A DNA stretch of 52,261 nt from Ignavibacteria bacterium. Its GTDB lineage: Bacteria > Bacteroidota > Ignavibacteria > Tepidaquicellales > Tepidaquicellaceae. This document shows, one piece after another, positions 4,903 to 13,174 of this stretch. Numbering within the stretch: the first letter of the stretch is position 1; the number at the start of each line of letters is the position of its first letter. A program made the translations under genes and the position numbers. Under the pieces are notes generated by a model. That model was not told the DNA's origin and made no database searches. It saw only the letters and a program-made list of their open reading frames with translations. The stretch spans positions 1 to 52,261 of the forward strand of contig VGWA01000006.1 in assembly GCA_016873795.1 (NCBI GenBank), written 5' to 3'.

Positions 4903-4950
4903 TTAAATTAGGTATTTCAGCATTTTCAAATCATCCCCGTCCCGATGAAA
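4903..4950 (-). pseudogene. relic of a methyltransferase N-terminus (GDDLKML motif)
   Basis: Read on the minus strand this gives GDDLKMLKYLI then TAA. GDxLKMLxxIPD is the start motif of beta-class DNA methyltransferases. The bases coding for it match those of two other fragments in this island (6957-6987 and 10299-10318) at nearly every position over about 26 bases. It is short, so the call rests mostly on that shared DNA. Confidence 0.35.
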
Positions 4951-4973
4951 TAATAAGCACCTTAAAATAAAAT

Positions 4974-5072
4974 TTATTTTCTATATTGTTCTGCTTTTAG
5001 AAGTGAATCTACGGTAATAAGACTTATATCCAATTCTCCTGCTTTCCAGAGGCGTTTTACTTCTGTCTCACT
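4974..5072 (-). pseudogene. unidentified coding relic
   Basis: A minus-strand stretch of 32 codons lies between in-frame stops (TGA at 5073-5075, TAA at 4974-4976) with no start codon. It reads SETEVKRLWKAGELDISLIT, then VDSLLKAEQYRK. The mix of charged residues and the regular amphipathic pattern look like a real protein C-terminus rather than noise in AT-rich DNA. I cannot name the family. It fits the picture of decayed genes at the island border. Confidence 0.3.
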
Positions 5073-5265: not shown

Positions 5266-5898
5266 ATGGAAAAATCATTAATTGAGTTATTTGAAAATGA
5301 AAAAATTGTAAACAAAATAAAAAAACGTTTACCTTATTTATTTCAAATTGCAGAATTAGAAAGTTCAAGAGATGGTAAAATCGGGATGGAGGTCGGTTCA
5401 TTAAGAGAGAAGGTAATTATTGCTTTATTGATTTATAAATTCGGTGAAAAAAATATCAGTACCAACATTCCAATTACAAAAGCAGAAATAGACGTCATTG
5501 TTTTTAACAATCCAATTTCTATTAAAACCATCACAGGAAAAAATCCGAGTGGAATTAAATTAATCTGGACAGTTGATGCAAATTCAGCAAGGGAATTTAT
5601 GAACAATTATATCCCGAGTTGCGATATGATATTAATTAATATTATCTGGAATGATAAGGGTTCGTTTTATTATATTCCATTAGAAGTGCAAAAGGAAATT
5701 TTCAAAAAATTAGGTAAAGAAAAATATATAAAACTACCTAAGCCCGGTACAAATCCGAGAGGTGTTGAGATGTCTAAAGATGCTATAATTGCATTAACAA
5801 ACCATAAATTAACTAAACGTATTCCAATCGATTGGGTAAAATCGGAAATAAAATATCACCCTTATGAAAGATGGGTAGATTTATGGAGTAAAGAATAA
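5266..5898 (+). CDS. type II restriction endonuclease, ThaI-like
   Basis: This 210-residue protein resembles the ThaI family (family specificity CG^CG). The recognition is from sequence memory, not a search. Visible features are the conserved block IGMEVGSLRE (residues 39-48) and a PD-(D/E)xK-like core: Glu74/Asp76 in KAEIDVIVF followed by SIK at 85-87 (Lys87). The core is thus D-X8-S-I-K, with Ser in place of the usual acidic residue, and Glu42 may supply another metal ligand. It shares one base with the start of the next gene (TAATG), so nuclease and methyltransferase form one operon with the nuclease first. It would cut unmodified incoming DNA. The exact site in this organism is not shown by the sequence. 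Confidence 0.75.
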   Translation: MEKSLIELFENEKIVNKIKKRLPYLFQIAELESSRDGKIGMEVGSLREKVIIALLIYKFGEKNISTNIPITKAEIDVIVFNNPISIKTITGKNPSGIKLIWTVDANSAREFMNNYIPSCDMILINIIWNDKGSFYYIPLEVQKEIFKKLGKEKYIKLPKPGTNPRGVEMSKDAIIALTNHKLTKRIPIDWVKSEIKYHPYERWVDLWSKE

Positions 5899-6896
5899 TG
5901 AGCTATAAAAGAAAAAGTGGAACTTCGACAAGTTCTTTTGGAACAAGCGGAAGAATAAATCATGATTCAACGAAATTTTATAATTCAAGATTATATTCAT
6001 CAGTAAATCTTAAATTATTAGAAGATACAAAGGAAAATGAGTTCCCCAAAAAATATGAAAATAAGATTATTTGCAGTTCATCTGAAAACATGAAAGAGAT
6101 TCCTGACAAATCTGTTCATTTGATGATAACATCACCTCCTTATAATGTTACAAAAGAATATGACCAAGATTTAACTTTGGAAGAATATTTAGTACTGTTG
6201 AAAAATGTATTTACGGAAACATACAGAGTACTAGTTAATGGCGGTCGTGCTTGTATTAATTTAGCAAATTTAGGAAGAAAACCGTACATTCCGTTATCCG
6301 ATTACATTTCTCTATTAATGATTGATATTGGATTTAATATGAGAGGTGAAATATTATGGAACAAAGCAGCAAGTGCAAGTCCATCGACTGCCTGGGGAAG
6401 CTGGTTATCTGCTGCTAATCCTATTTTAAGAGATATTCATGAATACATATTAATATTTTCAAAAGGAGAAATGAACAGAAACGCTAAGGGAAAAGAAAAT
6501 ACTATTACAAAAGAACAATTTATGTTATGGACAAAGTCAGTCTGGACAATGAATGCAGAATCAGCACGAAAAATCGGACATCCGGCACCATTTCCGGAAG
6601 AATTACCTTTGAGATTAATACATTTATATTCTTTCAAAAACGATATTATACTTGACCCATTCATAGGCAGCGGAACAACGGCAGTTGCAGCCATCAAAGC
6701 AAATAGAAAATTTATCGGATATGATATTAGTAAAGAATACGTAATGCTTGCAAATAAAAGGTTAAGTAAATATCTTGAACAATATAAAATTTCTTTTGAA
6801 AATGTAAATAAAGAAAATACTATTTATACAAAACCGGCAAAAGAAAAATTTAAAGTTGCAGACAAAAAGAAAAAGAAAAAGAAAACAAAAAAATAA
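5898..6896 (+). CDS. site-specific DNA methyltransferase (beta class), partner of the ThaI-like nuclease
   Basis: This enzyme would protect host DNA from the adjacent nuclease. Motif IV TSPPY is at residues 78-82 and the AdoMet motif DPFIGSGTT follows at 253-261. That order (IV before I) defines the beta class. TSPPY is the variant usual in N4-cytosine methyltransferases, so m4C is more likely than m6A. The intervening region (about 140-230) with WGSWLSAANP is the likely target recognition domain. A 60-residue N-terminal extension rich in Ser/Thr precedes the catalytic part, and the protein ends in a run of about ten lysines, possibly a non-specific DNA-binding tail. The ATG overlaps the nuclease stop by one base. 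Confidence 0.88.
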   Translation: MSYKRKSGTSTSSFGTSGRINHDSTKFYNSRLYSSVNLKLLEDTKENEFPKKYENKIICSSSENMKEIPDKSVHLMITSPPYNVTKEYDQDLTLEEYLVLLKNVFTETYRVLVNGGRACINLANLGRKPYIPLSDYISLLMIDIGFNMRGEILWNKAASASPSTAWGSWLSAANPILRDIHEYILIFSKGEMNRNAKGKENTITKEQFMLWTKSVWTMNAESARKIGHPAPFPEELPLRLIHLYSFKNDIILDPFIGSGTTAVAAIKANRKFIGYDISKEYVMLANKRLSKYLEQYKISFENVNKENTIYTKPAKEKFKVADKKKKKKKTKK

Positions 6897-7207
6897 TATA
6901 TTTACATTTTCGAACTGGGATTAAGGAATGAGAGGTAAAATCGGGGACATCCTTGAGCATTTTCAAATTATCCCTGTCATGATTAAATTATTGGAAATTT
7001 CAATTATCGTTTATTTATCGTATTATTTTGCATTATGGAGGGAATCTTTCCTCTGTCATTTCTACTTATGTTTCATTCCCGACCCGACGCCGAGTACTCG
7101 AGGGGGTAAGCTCCAGCGTTAATTTTTCCTCTGTAATTCTAGCGAAGATTGTAAATAATAAATTAGGAAGTAATTAATAAGCAGTACATAAATCGAAAAG
7201 ATTAAAA
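6897..7207. other. 311-base gap between convergent restriction systems
   Basis: No intact gene is visible. A minus-strand relic with a methyltransferase start motif lies at about 6935-6990. A GC-richer stretch at 7075-7125 contains CCCGACCCGACGCCGAG and does not resemble its surroundings. No clear terminator hairpin was found for either of the two convergent operons. Confidence 0.55.
6935..6990 (-). pseudogene. relic of a methyltransferase N-terminus (DNLKMLKDVPD motif)
   Basis: The minus strand reads RDNLKMLKDVPD and then loses similarity. This matches the start motif of beta-class DNA methyltransferases; the two live genes nearby begin ENMKEIPDKSVHL and SRKMRIIPDESVHL. The underlying DNA is almost identical to the fragment at 4920-4950 over 26 bases. 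There is no start codon and no continuing frame. Confidence 0.35.
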
Positions 7208-7849
7208 TTATTCTTTCTTTAATCGTTCAATTTCATTTTTAATGTCTTCTATAACATCTTTATTATATATTTCCTTCTTATCTTTATTTTTTACAGAGTA
7301 AATATAAAATACCTTTCCGCAAAATCCTTCCGAAAATTTTTTGTGAGTATCTTCCTGTATCATTTTCTCTTTAAATATTTCCGGCAGTTGGATTTCTCCT
7401 TTTGATGATATCGGTTTTATTTGCAAACCAATATATTTTTTATTTATTTCAATAAAAAAATCAACATTATATAATCTATCCCATTCATCAGGAGCAGGTT
7501 TAATTTCTTCGTTTAATTCTTTTTGTAATTGTCCATATATGGTTTGAATCTCCGTCATATAACCATCATAAGTTCTATCTATTACAAGATGAATCATCAT
7601 ATCGATACAATCTTGTTCTGTAATTTGTGCTACTTCTGCCTGAATTACTTCGGTTATTTTAATGTACAATTTTTTGCCAAGTGAAATAATATGTTCCTTT
7701 GACTTTACATTTTTAAAATAATATTCTCTCCATTCCTCTAAGGTTTTTGGTGCACATTTGCGAATAGATTCGGATGTCGGTCCAACATTCCTTTTAAAAT
7801 TCAATTGAAAACGATTTAAAGCACTATTTAATATCCATTCTTTAGCCAC
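7208..7849 (-). CDS. type II restriction endonuclease, MjaI-like
   Basis: This 213-residue protein starts at GTG 7849, which overlaps the end of the methyltransferase gene by eight bases. The N-terminus MAKEWILNSALNRFQLNFKR and the block VGPTSESIRKCAPKTLEEW resemble the MjaI family (family site CTAG); this is recognition by eye. A PD-(D/E)xK-like core is present: Asp130 in YNVDFFIE, a hairpin, then LQIK with Lys145 (Gln143 in the acidic position). The C-terminal ~50 residues are Lys/Glu-rich and helical. Its neighbour encodes the matching methyltransferase, giving a complete restriction-modification pair on the minus strand. Confidence 0.75.
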   Translation of the reverse strand: MAKEWILNSALNRFQLNFKRNVGPTSESIRKCAPKTLEEWREYYFKNVKSKEHIISLGKKLYIKITEVIQAEVAQITEQDCIDMMIHLVIDRTYDGYMTEIQTIYGQLQKELNEEIKPAPDEWDRLYNVDFFIEINKKYIGLQIKPISSKGEIQLPEIFKEKMIQEDTHKKFSEGFCGKVFYIYSVKNKDKKEIYNKDVIEDIKNEIERLKKE

Positions 7850-9134
7850 TACTTTTTATGTTAAAATTTAAAAATTTTTTTTTATACTTATAGTCAATAT
7901 CAATATCTACATTAACCAATCCACTTTTTATCAAATGAGCATTAATAAAAGTTTTATTATCGAGATAAAGATAACAGAGGAGATTATTATTAACGTCATA
8001 TTTTTGATTATCATATTTCACAAAAACTTTTTTACCCTTGAGTTTTGTTTGAAGGAATTTTACCGCATTATCTTTACTTTGTTCATTACTTTTTATACCT
8101 ATTAATCTTACGATAAGATTATTATCGAGTTTTAAAAGTTCAGGAGAGATTATTTCTTTTACTGTATAAAAATCTTCTCGTTTTTGGCTTCCGCTTTTAT
8201 CAATTGTAGAGCCAAATTGTAATTTTTTGGGGTCAACTTTTATATCGAGTTTATGGGGGTCTTTAAAAATATAAGGAAGTTTTTGAATCTCATCTTCAAA
8301 TTTCTTAAAAGTATTGTCCGAAATAAATTCATACTCTGTATTGTTAAAATCAACCTGATTAATATTTAATTTATTTTTAATAATGGGAATATATTCTTTA
8401 TTTATTTCAAAGCCAATGGAATTTCGATTTAGATTTTTTGCCGCAAGATTCGTAGTTCCGCTACCTGTAAATGGGTCAAGAATAGTATCGCCAATAAATG
8501 AAAACATTTTAATCAAACGTCCTGGTAATTCTTCCGGGAACATTGCGATATGATTATCCTGCTTTACTCCGTTTAAATACCAATGACCTACAAAAAAAGT
8601 ATTCCATTCTTCAGGTGATATTTTAGAAAGTTCTTTTTGCTCTTTAGTAGGTTTTGGTGCTTCACCAAGTTTTTTAAAAATTAAAATAAATTCATAATCG
8701 ATTTTCAGGATACCATTTCGGGGATAAGGATAAGAACCCATTTGAAGTCCACCACCGGTAGTATTAGATGTAGTAACTTTTTGCCAGATAATTGCCCCCA
8801 TATAATCGAATCCGATAATCTCACAAAATTTTATAATCTCTTCCCGAATTGGAATTACTTTATACCTTCCGTAATATACCGCTCTTGCAAACTGGTCACC
8901 AATATTTACACAAAGCCGGCATCCTTTATGTAATATACGATAACATTCTTTCCATACAAGATTTAAATTATTGATATAATTTTCATAACTATCATTAAAG
9001 CCGATTTGATTTTCTGAACCATAGTCTTTTAACTGCCAGTAAGGTGGGGATGTTATTATAAGATGTACAGATTCATCAGGGATTATCCTCATTTTTCTGC
9101 TATCACCGTTAATTATTTTATGTTTTGTATTCAA
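7842..9134 (-). CDS. DNA methyltransferase (beta class) with C-terminal SNase-like domain
   Basis: This is the protective enzyme for the MjaI-like nuclease. TSPPY is at residues 28-32 and DPFTGSGTT at 220-228, so it is beta class and probably m4C. The start is TTG 9134: the frame has no upstream ATG, and the next Met (residue 15) would cut off the GDSRKM start motif. After the catalytic part (to about 260) and a linker comes a domain at about 320-420 with the pattern of staphylococcal nuclease: TVK, VRLIGIKSNEQ, GKKVFVKYDNQKYD, YLYLDNKTFINAHLIKSGLVNV. Aligned to SNase, Arg35 and Glu43 are kept (Arg343, Glu351) but Asp21, Asp40 and Arg87 are replaced (Tyr323, Lys348, Asn384). The tail is therefore probably a binding module, not a nuclease. 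Confidence 0.85.
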   Translation of the reverse strand: MNTKHKIINGDSRKMRIIPDESVHLIITSPPYWQLKDYGSENQIGFNDSYENYINNLNLVWKECYRILHKGCRLCVNIGDQFARAVYYGRYKVIPIREEIIKFCEIIGFDYMGAIIWQKVTTSNTTGGGLQMGSYPYPRNGILKIDYEFILIFKKLGEAPKPTKEQKELSKISPEEWNTFFVGHWYLNGVKQDNHIAMFPEELPGRLIKMFSFIGDTILDPFTGSGTTNLAAKNLNRNSIGFEINKEYIPIIKNKLNINQVDFNNTEYEFISDNTFKKFEDEIQKLPYIFKDPHKLDIKVDPKKLQFGSTIDKSGSQKREDFYTVKEIISPELLKLDNNLIVRLIGIKSNEQSKDNAVKFLQTKLKGKKVFVKYDNQKYDVNNNLLCYLYLDNKTFINAHLIKSGLVNVDIDIDYKYKKKFLNFNIKSSG

Positions 9135-9298: not shown

Positions 9299-10105
9299 TT
9301 AATCATAATTGTCGTTTAATAGGTCTTTATATTTTTCCTTACATTTATTAATAATATCATCAATCTTATCAAAATTTGCTCTTTCGTTTAGTTTAATTTG
9401 ATTTAATATTTCTTCTTTAATAATTTCATGACGTGCTTCTAATTCTTTTAACTTCAGTTCAAAATTTTCTTCTAAAGTATATATTTTAAAGTCTTCTTCA
9501 AGCTTTTTGTAAATTTTAAGTGATAAAATAATTATTTCATTAATAGTCAGTAAAACTTTCTTGATGTAATCATCATAATAACTATCAAAAATTAAAACTT
9601 TTACTTTATCATCTATAATAGTACTATTATACTGTGAAGAAAAAATATTTGGATGTGAATAATAATAATTTATCATATTTTTATATATTTCTAAATCACG
9701 AGAAAATATTGGATATTTAGTTTTGATAAAATCATAAGATTTTCGCAAAATTTTTATATCATAATCGATAATTTGTTCATTTTCCATAATAATATTATAA
9801 TCATTAATTTTTTGAAAACTCATTGAATAAACAAATAAGGAAATACTTTCAATTACTTGTCGTAAAGAAAAAAATGTATGATTTGTATGCCTTCTTATTG
9901 CACATAATACAGCTAAATAAAAATTTTTTAAAATCTGAGCACCAAAATAGCGAGATACTTCATTATCTCTAGAAATGCTTTTAATACATTGAATATGCAT
10001 TAATAAATCTTTACATAAAGCATAAACATTTCCAAAGTTTGAATCAGCTTTATCAGTTAAATTATTTTCACTTGAGATAATCCATTCTAAATCTATTTTT
10101 TCCAT
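9299..10105 (-). CDS. uncharacterised helical protein in the defence island
   Basis: I do not recognise this 268-residue protein. It is soluble (no signal peptide, no clear membrane segment) and looks almost entirely alpha-helical. There is a coiled-coil-like C-terminal stretch (about residues 195-265) rich in Glu, Lys and Ile. Near residues 88-96 it has AIRRHTNH, which contains an R-x4-H spacing like the HEPN RNase motif, followed by LRQVIESI, but the match is weak. It lies between a methyltransferase relic upstream and the MjaI-like pair downstream, on the same strand. A defence-related role is inferred from position only. Confidence 0.65.
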   Translation of the reverse strand: MEKIDLEWIISSENNLTDKADSNFGNVYALCKDLLMHIQCIKSISRDNEVSRYFGAQILKNFYLAVLCAIRRHTNHTFFSLRQVIESISLFVYSMSFQKINDYNIIMENEQIIDYDIKILRKSYDFIKTKYPIFSRDLEIYKNMINYYYSHPNIFSSQYNSTIIDDKVKVLIFDSYYDDYIKKVLLTINEIIILSLKIYKKLEEDFKIYTLEENFELKLKELEARHEIIKEEILNQIKLNERANFDKIDDIINKCKEKYKDLLNDNYD

Positions 10106-10117
10106 AATTTATTATAG

Positions 10118-10356
10118 TTATATTTTGTTCTTTTTATTAATTAATTTATTTAATGCTGATTTTGCTTCCGCATTTCCGAACCTGTCTTCGAATGCCCGCT
10201 TCTCAGCGACGTCTCCCCAGAAGACCTCATAATTCCGATTTGAATTAAACGGCGAGTCAATGTTGCACAAATCTTGCTCTTATCGGGAATATCATTCAGC
10301 ATTTTCATATTATCCCCGCAATAAATCGTCTTTGTTTTTAACTAATATGATGTCAT
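10118..10356 (-). pseudogene. decayed beta-class DNA methyltransferase
   Basis: From ATG 10354-10356 the minus strand reads MTSY, then TAG, then LKTKTIYCGDNMKMLNDIPDKS. After a one-base loss the next frame continues DLCNIDSPFNSNRNYEVFWGD and then EKRAFEDRFGNAEAK, ending at TAA 10118-10120. The order (GDN..ML..IPD.S.DL..ID.PFNS.R.YEVFWG...EKRAFEDR) is that of a well-known group of adenine/cytosine methyltransferases. Motif IV is changed from DPPF to DSPF and everything after it, including the AdoMet-binding motif, is gone. It has an early stop, a frameshift and a large deletion, so it is non-functional. Confidence 0.8.
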
Positions 10357-10377: not shown

Positions 10378-11643
10378 TTATTTTAATAAGACTATATCAT
10401 ATCTGTTGTTTGGATACGGAAAATCTACCAAGCTCGGTTCAAAATAAAATATTATTAATTTCCTTAATAGATACATCATTTTATTATATTCATGTAATAA
10501 TATTTTAATATCATATTTCTCGAAATTAAAATGAGTAAGTTCATGTCTGTATTCTGTTATTAGCCATTCACATTTGCTATTATTCTTTTTCAGACGTTTA
10601 GGAGAAATTTCAAAATTAATTCTTTTAATATCAATATTAACTTTTTCAGAAGCAAGTTTTATGCACTCTTCATCTTTGGAATAATTTTTAGGTTGCATAA
10701 TAATTTTTGAAATAGCAGCTAGTAAAAAATATGTACTTGAAAATTTTGGTCCAAATATTTTCTGCTCTGATATAGAAATAAATGAATACAAAATCCTTTC
10801 TAATTTTTCAAGTTTTGAATTATCTAAATGCAAATATGAATTCAATAATTTTGAGATATTTTCACTTGTAAAATACTTTTCAAATTTATATCCAATATTT
10901 GAAGTATAATCTTCACTACTTTTCTGAGCTGCATTTCGATATTTTAATTGAGATATTAATTTATTTCTTCCAAATACTTTTACTTTATATCCAAATGTAT
11001 TAATCCTATTAAACAATAAAAATGAAATTATAAGCATAAGTTTTTGTATAAGAGCAAAATTATTATCTATTATTTTATTTATATCCTCGTCTTTATTAAT
11101 TTTTAACAACAATTTTGGATACATTAATCTATTAAAAATATAATCAGGTTCATCATATTTCACTAAATTCACTACTTCATTAAAAATAATCTCTTTGCAA
11201 TCTGTTACAATAGTAAATTCATCTTTTTTAAATGAAAACAAAACTTTCTTTGTATTATCTGTATTTCTGGATATTTCTCTACTTAATGGAGTAATATATG
11301 GGACATAATAAGATATTTCAATTTCATCAGGTTCTTCATTGCTATAAGAATAATACTCTTTTATAATTTCAATTTGAAACTTTATTTTCCCATGCCCAAG
11401 AGGTAATGAGAATATTGAGCCCTCGATATAAACTCCGTCATTACCTATAAATTTGCAAGGGTTAATATCTTTCATAAAATCATCATAGATATCTTTACTT
11501 AAACCATCAAATTCTATTATGCCGTTCATATTGTGATTAGAATATAAATCATATTCGTAATCACAGTATACATCATCCAATGTATATTTATCCCAAAATA
11601 TGAATTTTCCTTTTGTTCTTCTATTTATAATATGTTTTCGCAA
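10378..11643 (-). CDS. candidate HEPN-domain defence protein (ApeA-like architecture)
   Basis: This 421-residue protein has no clear close family. The N-terminal half (about 1-180) looks beta-rich, with many Tyr/Asp and short strands. The C-terminal half is helical. Near the end lies EYRHELTHFN, an R366-x4-H371 motif with a polar residue after the Arg, the catalytic signature of HEPN ribonucleases, followed by a long helix (LLHEYNKMMYLLRKLIIFYF). An N-terminal beta domain plus a C-terminal HEPN domain is the layout of ApeA-type anti-phage proteins. The start is TTG 11643; no ATG lies upstream in frame and the next Met is residue 39, so the start is uncertain. Its neighbours are an HNH protein and a methyltransferase relic. 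Confidence 0.6.
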   Translation of the reverse strand: MRKHIINRRTKGKFIFWDKYTLDDVYCDYEYDLYSNHNMNGIIEFDGLSKDIYDDFMKDINPCKFIGNDGVYIEGSIFSLPLGHGKIKFQIEIIKEYYSYSNEEPDEIEISYYVPYITPLSREISRNTDNTKKVLFSFKKDEFTIVTDCKEIIFNEVVNLVKYDEPDYIFNRLMYPKLLLKINKDEDINKIIDNNFALIQKLMLIISFLLFNRINTFGYKVKVFGRNKLISQLKYRNAAQKSSEDYTSNIGYKFEKYFTSENISKLLNSYLHLDNSKLEKLERILYSFISISEQKIFGPKFSSTYFLLAAISKIIMQPKNYSKDEECIKLASEKVNIDIKRINFEISPKRLKKNNSKCEWLITEYRHELTHFNFEKYDIKILLHEYNKMMYLLRKLIIFYFEPSLVDFPYPNNRYDIVLLK

Positions 11644-11694: not shown

Positions 11695-12423
11695 TTATTT
11701 TAATACATTTCTAATTTCATCTATAATTTCATTCCTTATTTTATAAGTTATGCTAATTAGTTTTGAAGCATTATCACTTAATTCAACTGCTTTTGCCCAA
11801 TGTTTATAGTCATTATTTTTATCAAAACTTGAATAATGTATTTGCGAATAACTTGATTGTTTTATTGCTTCTTTTAAATTATTAAATAAAATTTTCATTT
11901 TATCATCTAATCTTAAATTAGAAAATATTCTATATTTTTCATATAAGGTTTCAAAATCATATAATATTTTATTACCTTCATTCCAGTATTTTTCTTTTTC
12001 TGTTTTATTACAATATGGAATAGCAGCTTCGATAAAATATTCTAATTTAGATATCATATCTTTTAATTCACAAGAAAATAAAATATAAAAATCTAATTTG
12101 TTGTTTATTTCCTTTTTCATACCCTTTTTTTTCTTTTTAAATATTATTGGGTTGTCCTTACAATATTTTTCCCAATCCTCTTTGTATTTCACAATTTCAT
12201 CTTTTTTGAAAATTTTTCCTAATCCACCACTTTTCATTACGCTACTATGACAATTAATGCATAATACCGCTAAATTAGAATAATCATTATTCGAAGGATC
12301 TTTGTCAATGTGATGTACCTGAGCATCATTCCTATTATTTCTACAAATACAACAGGTATGCCTGTTCTTGTATAATAATTCAGATTGGATTGTTTGTGGA
12401 ATTTGTATTCTTTTTTTTGTCAT
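11695..12423 (-). CDS. HNH endonuclease with C-terminal helical domain
   Basis: This 242-residue protein starts at ATG 12423. The N-terminal ~65 residues form a zinc-stabilised HNH fold: CCIC (Cys24, Cys27), VHHID (His37/His38, Asp40), Asn46 and Asn50, and CINCH (Cys55, Cys58, His59). A Lys-rich linker (KKKKKGMKKE) leads to a ~140-residue helical region with no motif I recognise, possibly an effector-regulating or partner-binding part. Single-protein HNH nucleases of this layout are common in defence islands. It is 51 bases upstream of the HEPN candidate on the same strand, so the two may form a unit. Confidence 0.75.
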   Translation of the reverse strand: MTKKRIQIPQTIQSELLYKNRHTCCICRNNRNDAQVHHIDKDPSNNDYSNLAVLCINCHSSVMKSGGLGKIFKKDEIVKYKEDWEKYCKDNPIIFKKKKKGMKKEINNKLDFYILFSCELKDMISKLEYFIEAAIPYCNKTEKEKYWNEGNKILYDFETLYEKYRIFSNLRLDDKMKILFNNLKEAIKQSSYSQIHYSSFDKNNDYKHWAKAVELSDNASKLISITYKIRNEIIDEIRNVLK

Positions 12424-12633: not shown

Positions 12634-12662
12634 CACAAACGGGAGGAGGGCTCCCGTTTGTG
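12634..12662. terminator. strong hairpin, possible bidirectional terminator
   Basis: CACAAACGGGAG at 12634-12645 pairs perfectly with CTCCCGTTTGTG at 12651-12662 around a five-base loop. The minus-strand 3' side continues ATTTATATTT, a weak U-tract. It lies about 510 bases beyond the last gene of the sprA/cargo run and just upstream of the HNH gene. It could end read-through from that run or simply be part of the repeat cluster. Confidence 0.4.
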
Positions 12663-12688
12663 TGTGTTGATTGTGATGTGTGCAATAG

Positions 12689-12808
12689 CTCAGGGGACAC
12701 TTATGATTACGCTGATTATCTTGCACCTGGGAATAACCACTGGTGATAAACATTATCTGACAGTTCTCAGAGGACGCTGATAGTTACGCTGATTGTCTCG
12801 CTCCGGGG
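12689..12808. repeat. two 43-base imperfect direct repeats, 77-base period
   Basis: Copy 1 (12689-12731) and copy 2 (12766-12808) share CTCAG.GGAC, a TTACGCTGATT core and a C-rich end (CACCTGGG / CTCCGGGG). The core is like the ATTACGCTGATT-type dispersed repeats found in many unrelated bacterial genomes. No coding frame spans them convincingly. Confidence 0.6.
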
Positions 12809-13174
12809 TCCTGGTTCTCCGCGTGTGTTTACTTTGCGAAGCCAGCAGTGTGCGGTTTTTCCTGCGTCGCTTCCGCTGAATCACTCTACGTACGGCATCC
12901 TGGTATCGCTCCGTTCCTTTTACCGATTGTTTTATTTCGCTTTCAAAAAAATTTGTTCCGTTAACAAAATAAATTGTTCCGCTTCCATTAAAGTAATTTA
13001 TTCTTTTTACAGATTTCAGCTTTATACAATTATTTTTTTGTATGGGAAGATTCGACTGTTTTATTGCTTTTACTTGCGGGAATGACAGAACGGAATTGTT
13101 TATTAACTTTCTTTACAACACCGAATTAATTTGAAATTGCTATAACAATGTGCAGTTCCTAAATTAATTTTTAA

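Follow-up and report, generated by a model that had tools for sequence, protein, structure and literature searches.

A candidate diverged HEPN ribonuclease effector beside two restriction-modification pairs in an Ignavibacteria bacterium

Gene content of the locus

The window, i.e. the whole 52,261-nucleotide stretch of Ignavibacteria bacterium DNA analysed here (contig VGWA01000006.1), contains an AT-rich island in which a candidate HEPN effector gene lies among restriction-modification (R-M) genes. The features considered are listed below.

5266..6896, + strand: ThaI-type R-M pair, restriction endonuclease at 5266-5898 and DNA methylase at 5898-6896 (PF15514, E 7e-93; PF01555, E 9e-47)
7208..9134, - strand: MjaI-type R-M pair, restriction endonuclease at 7208-7849 and DNA methylase at 7842-9134
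9299..10105, - strand: 268-aa ORF of no matched family, 21% GC, lying between the MjaI-type pair and the candidate
10118..10316, - strand: remnant of a methyltransferase gene's 5' end, decayed, next to the candidate on its downstream side
10378..11643, - strand: candidate HEPN effector ORF, 421 aa, TTG start, open frame
10381..10860, - strand: putative HEPN helical domain, residues 262-421 of the candidate (AF2 fragment, HHalign, Cas13a_SPE match)
10531..10548, - strand: putative HEPN catalytic R-x4-H, R366-H367-E368-L369-T370-H371, with a polar residue after R
10999..11643, - strand: N-terminal half of the candidate (residues 1-215), a putative sensor and orphan domain, modelled as beta-rich only at low confidence
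11695..12423, - strand: HNH-domain ORF, 242 aa (HNH_3, E 6e-5, just under the Pfam cut-off; many PHROG HNH matches)

At exactly the coordinates of the first-pass annotation, 10378-11643, the - strand holds an uninterrupted 421-aa ORF. Its G+C content is 23%, compared with 33% for the window and 26.5% for the AT-rich island, and its GC by codon position is strongly biased (31/23/17%). When its own DNA was shuffled, the longest stop-free run averaged 50 codons and never exceeded 134. The ORF is therefore coding, or was very recently a gene, beyond reasonable doubt. Its exact N-terminus is uncertain because the TTG directly follows a stop codon and the first ATG after it encodes M39.

The location given by the first-pass annotation also holds, with the HNH ORF on one side of the candidate and the MjaI-type and ThaI-type R-M pairs on the other. 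The HNH ORF lies 51 bp upstream of the candidate on the same strand. Both genes have low GC (23%) and alike codon-position GC, and the HNH ORF is a possible operon partner. The MjaI-type pair matches PF09568 (E 1e-47), PF01555 (E 9e-45) and PADLOC MTase_II (E 1e-170). Its methylase (7842-9134, - strand) has a C-terminal staphylococcal-nuclease-like match (SNase, PF00565) at residues 343-422; this methylase-SNase fusion is not unique, since one PADLOC methyltransferase model spans nearly its whole length. ThaI and MjaI types, both named for archaeal enzymes, adjoin here in a bacterial island.

The 268-aa ORF at 9299-10105 matched no Pfam, PADLOC or NCBIfam model. It is weakly related to a hypothetical protein from a plasmid of Caulobacter henricii (E 0.007), and its residues 59-90 give a weak HHalign match (P 0.0056) to an N-terminal stretch of the ApeA HEPN profile described below. 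Three decayed apparent DNA methyltransferase 5' ends (GDNxKMLNDIPD...DSPFNSNRNYEVFWGD) were found at 4916-5010, 6940-7047 and 10118-10316, all on the - strand and between defence modules. In the genome as a whole, the remnant core GGGGATAATNTGAAAATGCT (at most 2 mismatches allowed) is confined to these three positions. The remnants may be traces of repeated insertion, or of recombination, where a methyltransferase gene once stood. Immediately beyond the HNH gene, the intergenic stretch 12640-12940 is more GC-rich and carries an imperfect 43-nt direct repeat (12689, 12766); it is possibly the island border. Genes nearby encode C-terminal domains of the type IX secretion kind, a sign of the Bacteroidota line.

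Motif and profile evidence for a HEPN domain

The R366-x4-H371 motif reported by the first-pass annotation is present, and RHELTH (366-371) is the only R-x4-H within the candidate protein. Taken alone, it is poor evidence for HEPN, because 22% of shuffles of the candidate protein hold R-x4-H somewhere. The share is 7% for R[NHDKQ]xxxH and 1.2% for R[NHD]xxxH inside the last 120 residues. Of the 25 ORFs in the window that reach 250 aa from stop to stop, 5 have an R-x4-H. The motif has the R-x4-6-H form of HEPN proteins, and H367 provides the polar residue that the HEPN definition includes directly after the Arg (PMC3710099).

Thirteen ApeA-type proteins with PF18739 domains were gathered, and a profile was made from their HEPN part. 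In HHalign, residues 262-421 of the candidate matched this profile with a score of 22.1 (P 0.0063), and residues 362-401 fell on the ApeA RNYxxH helix-loop-helix, RHELTH matching RNYxxH. This score was equalled by none of 150 plain shuffles and by 2 of 150 motif-anchored shuffles, in which RHELTH was kept in place, and was exceeded by 2 of 148 fragments from other real proteins. The first of these two is L019, which itself seems to possess a Csx1-like HEPN domain, its C-terminus (STRNDIAH) resembling a Csx1-type HEPN by eye. The second is part of the 268-aa neighbour, aligned elsewhere on the profile. True ApeA members scored 42-214 in a leave-one-out version of the same comparison, against 22 for the candidate. 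With HMMER, the ApeA HEPN profile gave the candidate 9.2 bits, a score that plain shuffles attained in 1.1% of cases and motif-anchored shuffles in 6.8%.

The PADLOC model Cas13a_SPE (PDLC01467) matches fragment 290-421 over residues 314-390 (E 0.0023). None of 9 shuffles of the C-terminal fragment gave any match at E<=1, and the Cas13a_SPE match is absent when the full-length candidate is the query. A further match, to phrog_22262 (no known function), covers residues 318-373 (E 0.014). The full-length candidate matched no Pfam, NCBIfam or PADLOC model (ApeA models included) and no PDB chain; PF18739 HEPN_Apea and the ApeA NTD Pfam models are among those without a match.

The N-terminal half gave nothing at E<=10 against Pfam and PADLOC. 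When the N-terminal part was aligned to the ApeA NTD profile by HHalign, 63 of 150 shuffles scored equally high. A whole-length profile of the 13 ApeA sequences, run on the whole candidate with HMMER, returned nothing above shuffles. The three segments of the candidate (N-terminal, middle, C-terminal) at first seemed to match ApeA collinearly, but this was rejected, the best match of the middle segment being off the diagonal and the N-terminal one equal to shuffles. The profile search of the two halves, proposed as a check in the first-pass annotation, returned weak HEPN and Cas13a matches for the C-terminal half but none for the N-terminal half (Pfam and PADLOC, E<=10).

Structure models

The AF2 model of the whole protein, built from the single sequence, has a pLDDT of 31. 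Residues 262-421 modelled separately are all-helical, with pLDDT 48.8 and pTM 0.35. The modelled helices (pLDDT about 49) span 275-297, 303-315, 357-371 and 379-401, with shorter ones between. In this low-confidence model, R366 and H371 lie at the end of helix 357-371, and helix 379-401 comes next. One feature of HEPN membership is that the motif closes helix 3 of a four-helix bundle. Many HEPN active sites also include an acidic residue in helix 2, often as E-x3-[KR] when present. Modelled helix 2 (303-315; low-confidence borders) is without an acidic residue; E279xxxR283 lies in modelled helix 1 and E325xxxK329 in the helix after 303-315, again with low-confidence borders. The described HEPN layout places R-x4-H where the model has R366/H371, at the end of a helix (PMC3710099).

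A Foldseek search with the C-terminal model returned noise only and no HEPN fold, a blank that is expected because the model is of low confidence. Structure prediction, also among the checks suggested earlier, gives at low confidence a layout consistent with HEPN, an all-helical C-terminus with the motif at a helix end. The beta-rich N-terminus and C-terminal helical domain of the first-pass annotation were not substantiated, both having only low-confidence models behind them (pLDDT 31 and 49).

Because of the HHalign register, the Cas13a-model match and the helix layout of the low-confidence model, a HEPN domain is weakly favoured as the best-supported reading of the candidate's C-terminal 160 residues. 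The earlier HEPN claim is retained in this weakened form, the three lines of evidence favouring it but no full-length library match accompanying them.

Search for relatives

A search was performed for relatives of the candidate. In its own genome none was found beyond the candidate itself. Scans of about 1,300 whole genomes (own family, order, class and phylum, plus two further classes; certain genomes counted more than once) found no relative. Genome contigs, queried once with the protein and once with a loosened R[HN]-motif pattern, likewise gave none, nor did viral contigs scanned with the candidate or tblastn against plasmids and phages at E values as high as 10. For the loosened-pattern scans of viral and genome contigs, short invented variant fragments were added to the alignment, for the pattern only. 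Matches at E ~0.007 in L002-L004 were rejected as noise, being short, containing internal stops, or lying inside much longer ORFs. Since pattern-based scans detect close relatives only, these results indicate that the candidate is rare or very diverged, not that relatives are absent. The ApeA HEPN domain was present in 9 of 198 sampled genomes of the phylum, which suggests that the candidate's family is much rarer or beyond detection.

In another genome of the class, L020:489-1655 (+ strand) encodes a 389-aa protein with a sub-threshold PF18739 match (E 1.5e-4) and the motif YRNSIVH. Its N-terminal part looks beta-rich by eye, and it is a possible further HEPN effector of an unmatched family.

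Interpretation and alternative readings

We consider it fairly probable that the candidate is a HEPN ribonuclease, highly diverged, that works as a single-gene effector of the abortive-infection type, and on balance the evidence tips towards the HEPN assignment itself. An unlikely reading is that the candidate is an orphan protein of the island whose C-terminus is helical and whose RHELTH is coincidental, perhaps one that binds DNA, has an accessory role or serves in defence with a different fold. Such a protein would fit the lack of any family match over the whole length, the lack of a Foldseek fold match, the frequency of R-x4-H in shuffles, and the lack of an acidic residue to correspond to the helix-2 Glu of ApeA (by eye, the Ser of AAISK aligns there). 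It accommodates less well the in-register HHalign alignment, which no plain shuffle and just 2 of 150 anchored shuffles equal, the independent Cas13a-model match across the same residues, and the motif at the end of a predicted helix. That the ORF is a decaying or truncated gene amid island gene debris is very improbable: a methyltransferase remnant does lie directly downstream, with two more copies in the island, and the TTG start directly follows a stop, but 421 unbroken codons at 23% GC (shuffle mean 50) and coding-type codon-position GC argue against it.

The candidate could be an extremely diverged true ApeA (ApeA-NTD1 plus HEPN), including activation by deoxydinucleotides, a special case that we regard as conceivable but doubtful. 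The size class, domain order and R-M context are shared, and the top HEPN match is ApeA, in register and at the correct place in the full profile. PF18739 and the ApeA NTD model are unmatched, however, the leave-one-out members score at least 42, and the N-terminal and middle segments stay at shuffle level against the ApeA profile. We think it rather unlikely that the HNH ORF and the 421-aa ORF form a co-transcribed two-gene unit, acting for example as DNase and RNase effectors or as a toxin-regulator pair; the shared strand, short gap and similar base composition would suit such a unit, but no relatives of either gene were found in which the pair is conserved. A new HEPN family with an unrelated sensor, present in one searched genome and possibly working with the HNH protein as a two-nuclease (RNA and DNA) abortive module, is likewise improbable in our estimate. 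These likelihoods overlap, as the ApeA and two-gene readings either fall within that of the single-gene HEPN effector or can hold alongside it.

By analogy with other HEPN proteins, the single-gene effector would sense infection, dimerise, cleave RNA and act by abortive infection. The N-terminal ~215 to 260 residues would serve as the sensor of an infection cue (protein or nucleotide), keeping the enzyme inactive until infection sets it free. The C-terminal HEPN domains of two subunits would next come together, joining R366 and H371 from each. The paired domains would cut RNA without metal, so that translation stops and the cell is killed or arrested before phage release. The candidate could in this way form a second layer behind the ThaI-type and MjaI-type restriction systems. 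HEPN genes, ApeA included, have been described in R-M operons (PMC3710099).

HEPN effectors diverge fast and can be missed by library-based defence finders, as the whole candidate was by Pfam, NCBIfam and PADLOC. If the HEPN reading falls, the case shows that R-x4-H without relatives says little.

Comparison with known systems

The Abi-type HEPN families (AbiF, AbiJ, AbiU2 etc.) are likewise HEPN effectors with varied N-terminal domains, several of them near R-M genes (PMC3710099), whereas the candidate has no Pfam match to any of them. Cas13a HEPN (PDLC01467) resembles the candidate in the weak match of the C-terminal fragment spanning R-x4-H. The candidate differs in being a 421-aa protein with one possible HEPN domain instead of two and with no CRISPR context seen nearby.

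Tha, a HEPN defence protein of a Staphylococcus prophage, is an RNase activated by a phage cue; metal-free RNA cutting that halts the infected cell is shown for it, and the His of its R-x4-H is needed for protection (PMC11087260). Compared by description only, Tha and the candidate are both single proteins with an unassigned N-terminus and a C-terminal HEPN R-x4-H (R265NSIMH270 in Tha; PMC11087260). Tha has 301 aa and is prophage-borne, while the candidate has 421 aa.

ApeA proteins combine a mostly-beta N-terminal domain of ~300 aa with a C-terminal HEPN domain, and some members occur in R-M operons (PMC3710099). Deoxydinucleotides are reported to activate ApeA, according to a preprint title in the references of PMC13405049. 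The candidate resembles ApeA (PF18739 + ApeA-NTD1) in being a single gene with a putative beta-rich N-terminus and a putative C-terminal HEPN (with R[ND]xxxH in ApeA) at an R-M locus, and in size (421 aa, compared with 409-496 for ApeA members, stop to stop). Occurrence with R-M genes, a trait of some ApeA members that does not define the family, is found for the candidate as well. It differs in that the Arg is followed by His (H367), a position taken by N or D in most ApeA members, and in having, in an alignment by eye, the Ser of AAISK at the position of the ApeA helix-2 Glu. Judged by sequence, the candidate is not an ApeA member, and its resemblance lies in architecture and context. The ApeA-like defence proposed by the first-pass annotation survives as a possibly shared plan and R-M context, but not in the Pfam models, the profile scores or the N-terminal comparison. 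The N-terminal domain, called novel there, is novel in being without detectable relative or library match, but a beta N-terminus with a C-terminal HEPN is a plan already known from ApeA. We therefore regard the candidate as a variant on the ApeA plan and not as a new class. If the HEPN reading is true, it would add a candidate sensor domain to the ApeA/Tha-like single-gene RNA-cutting defences.
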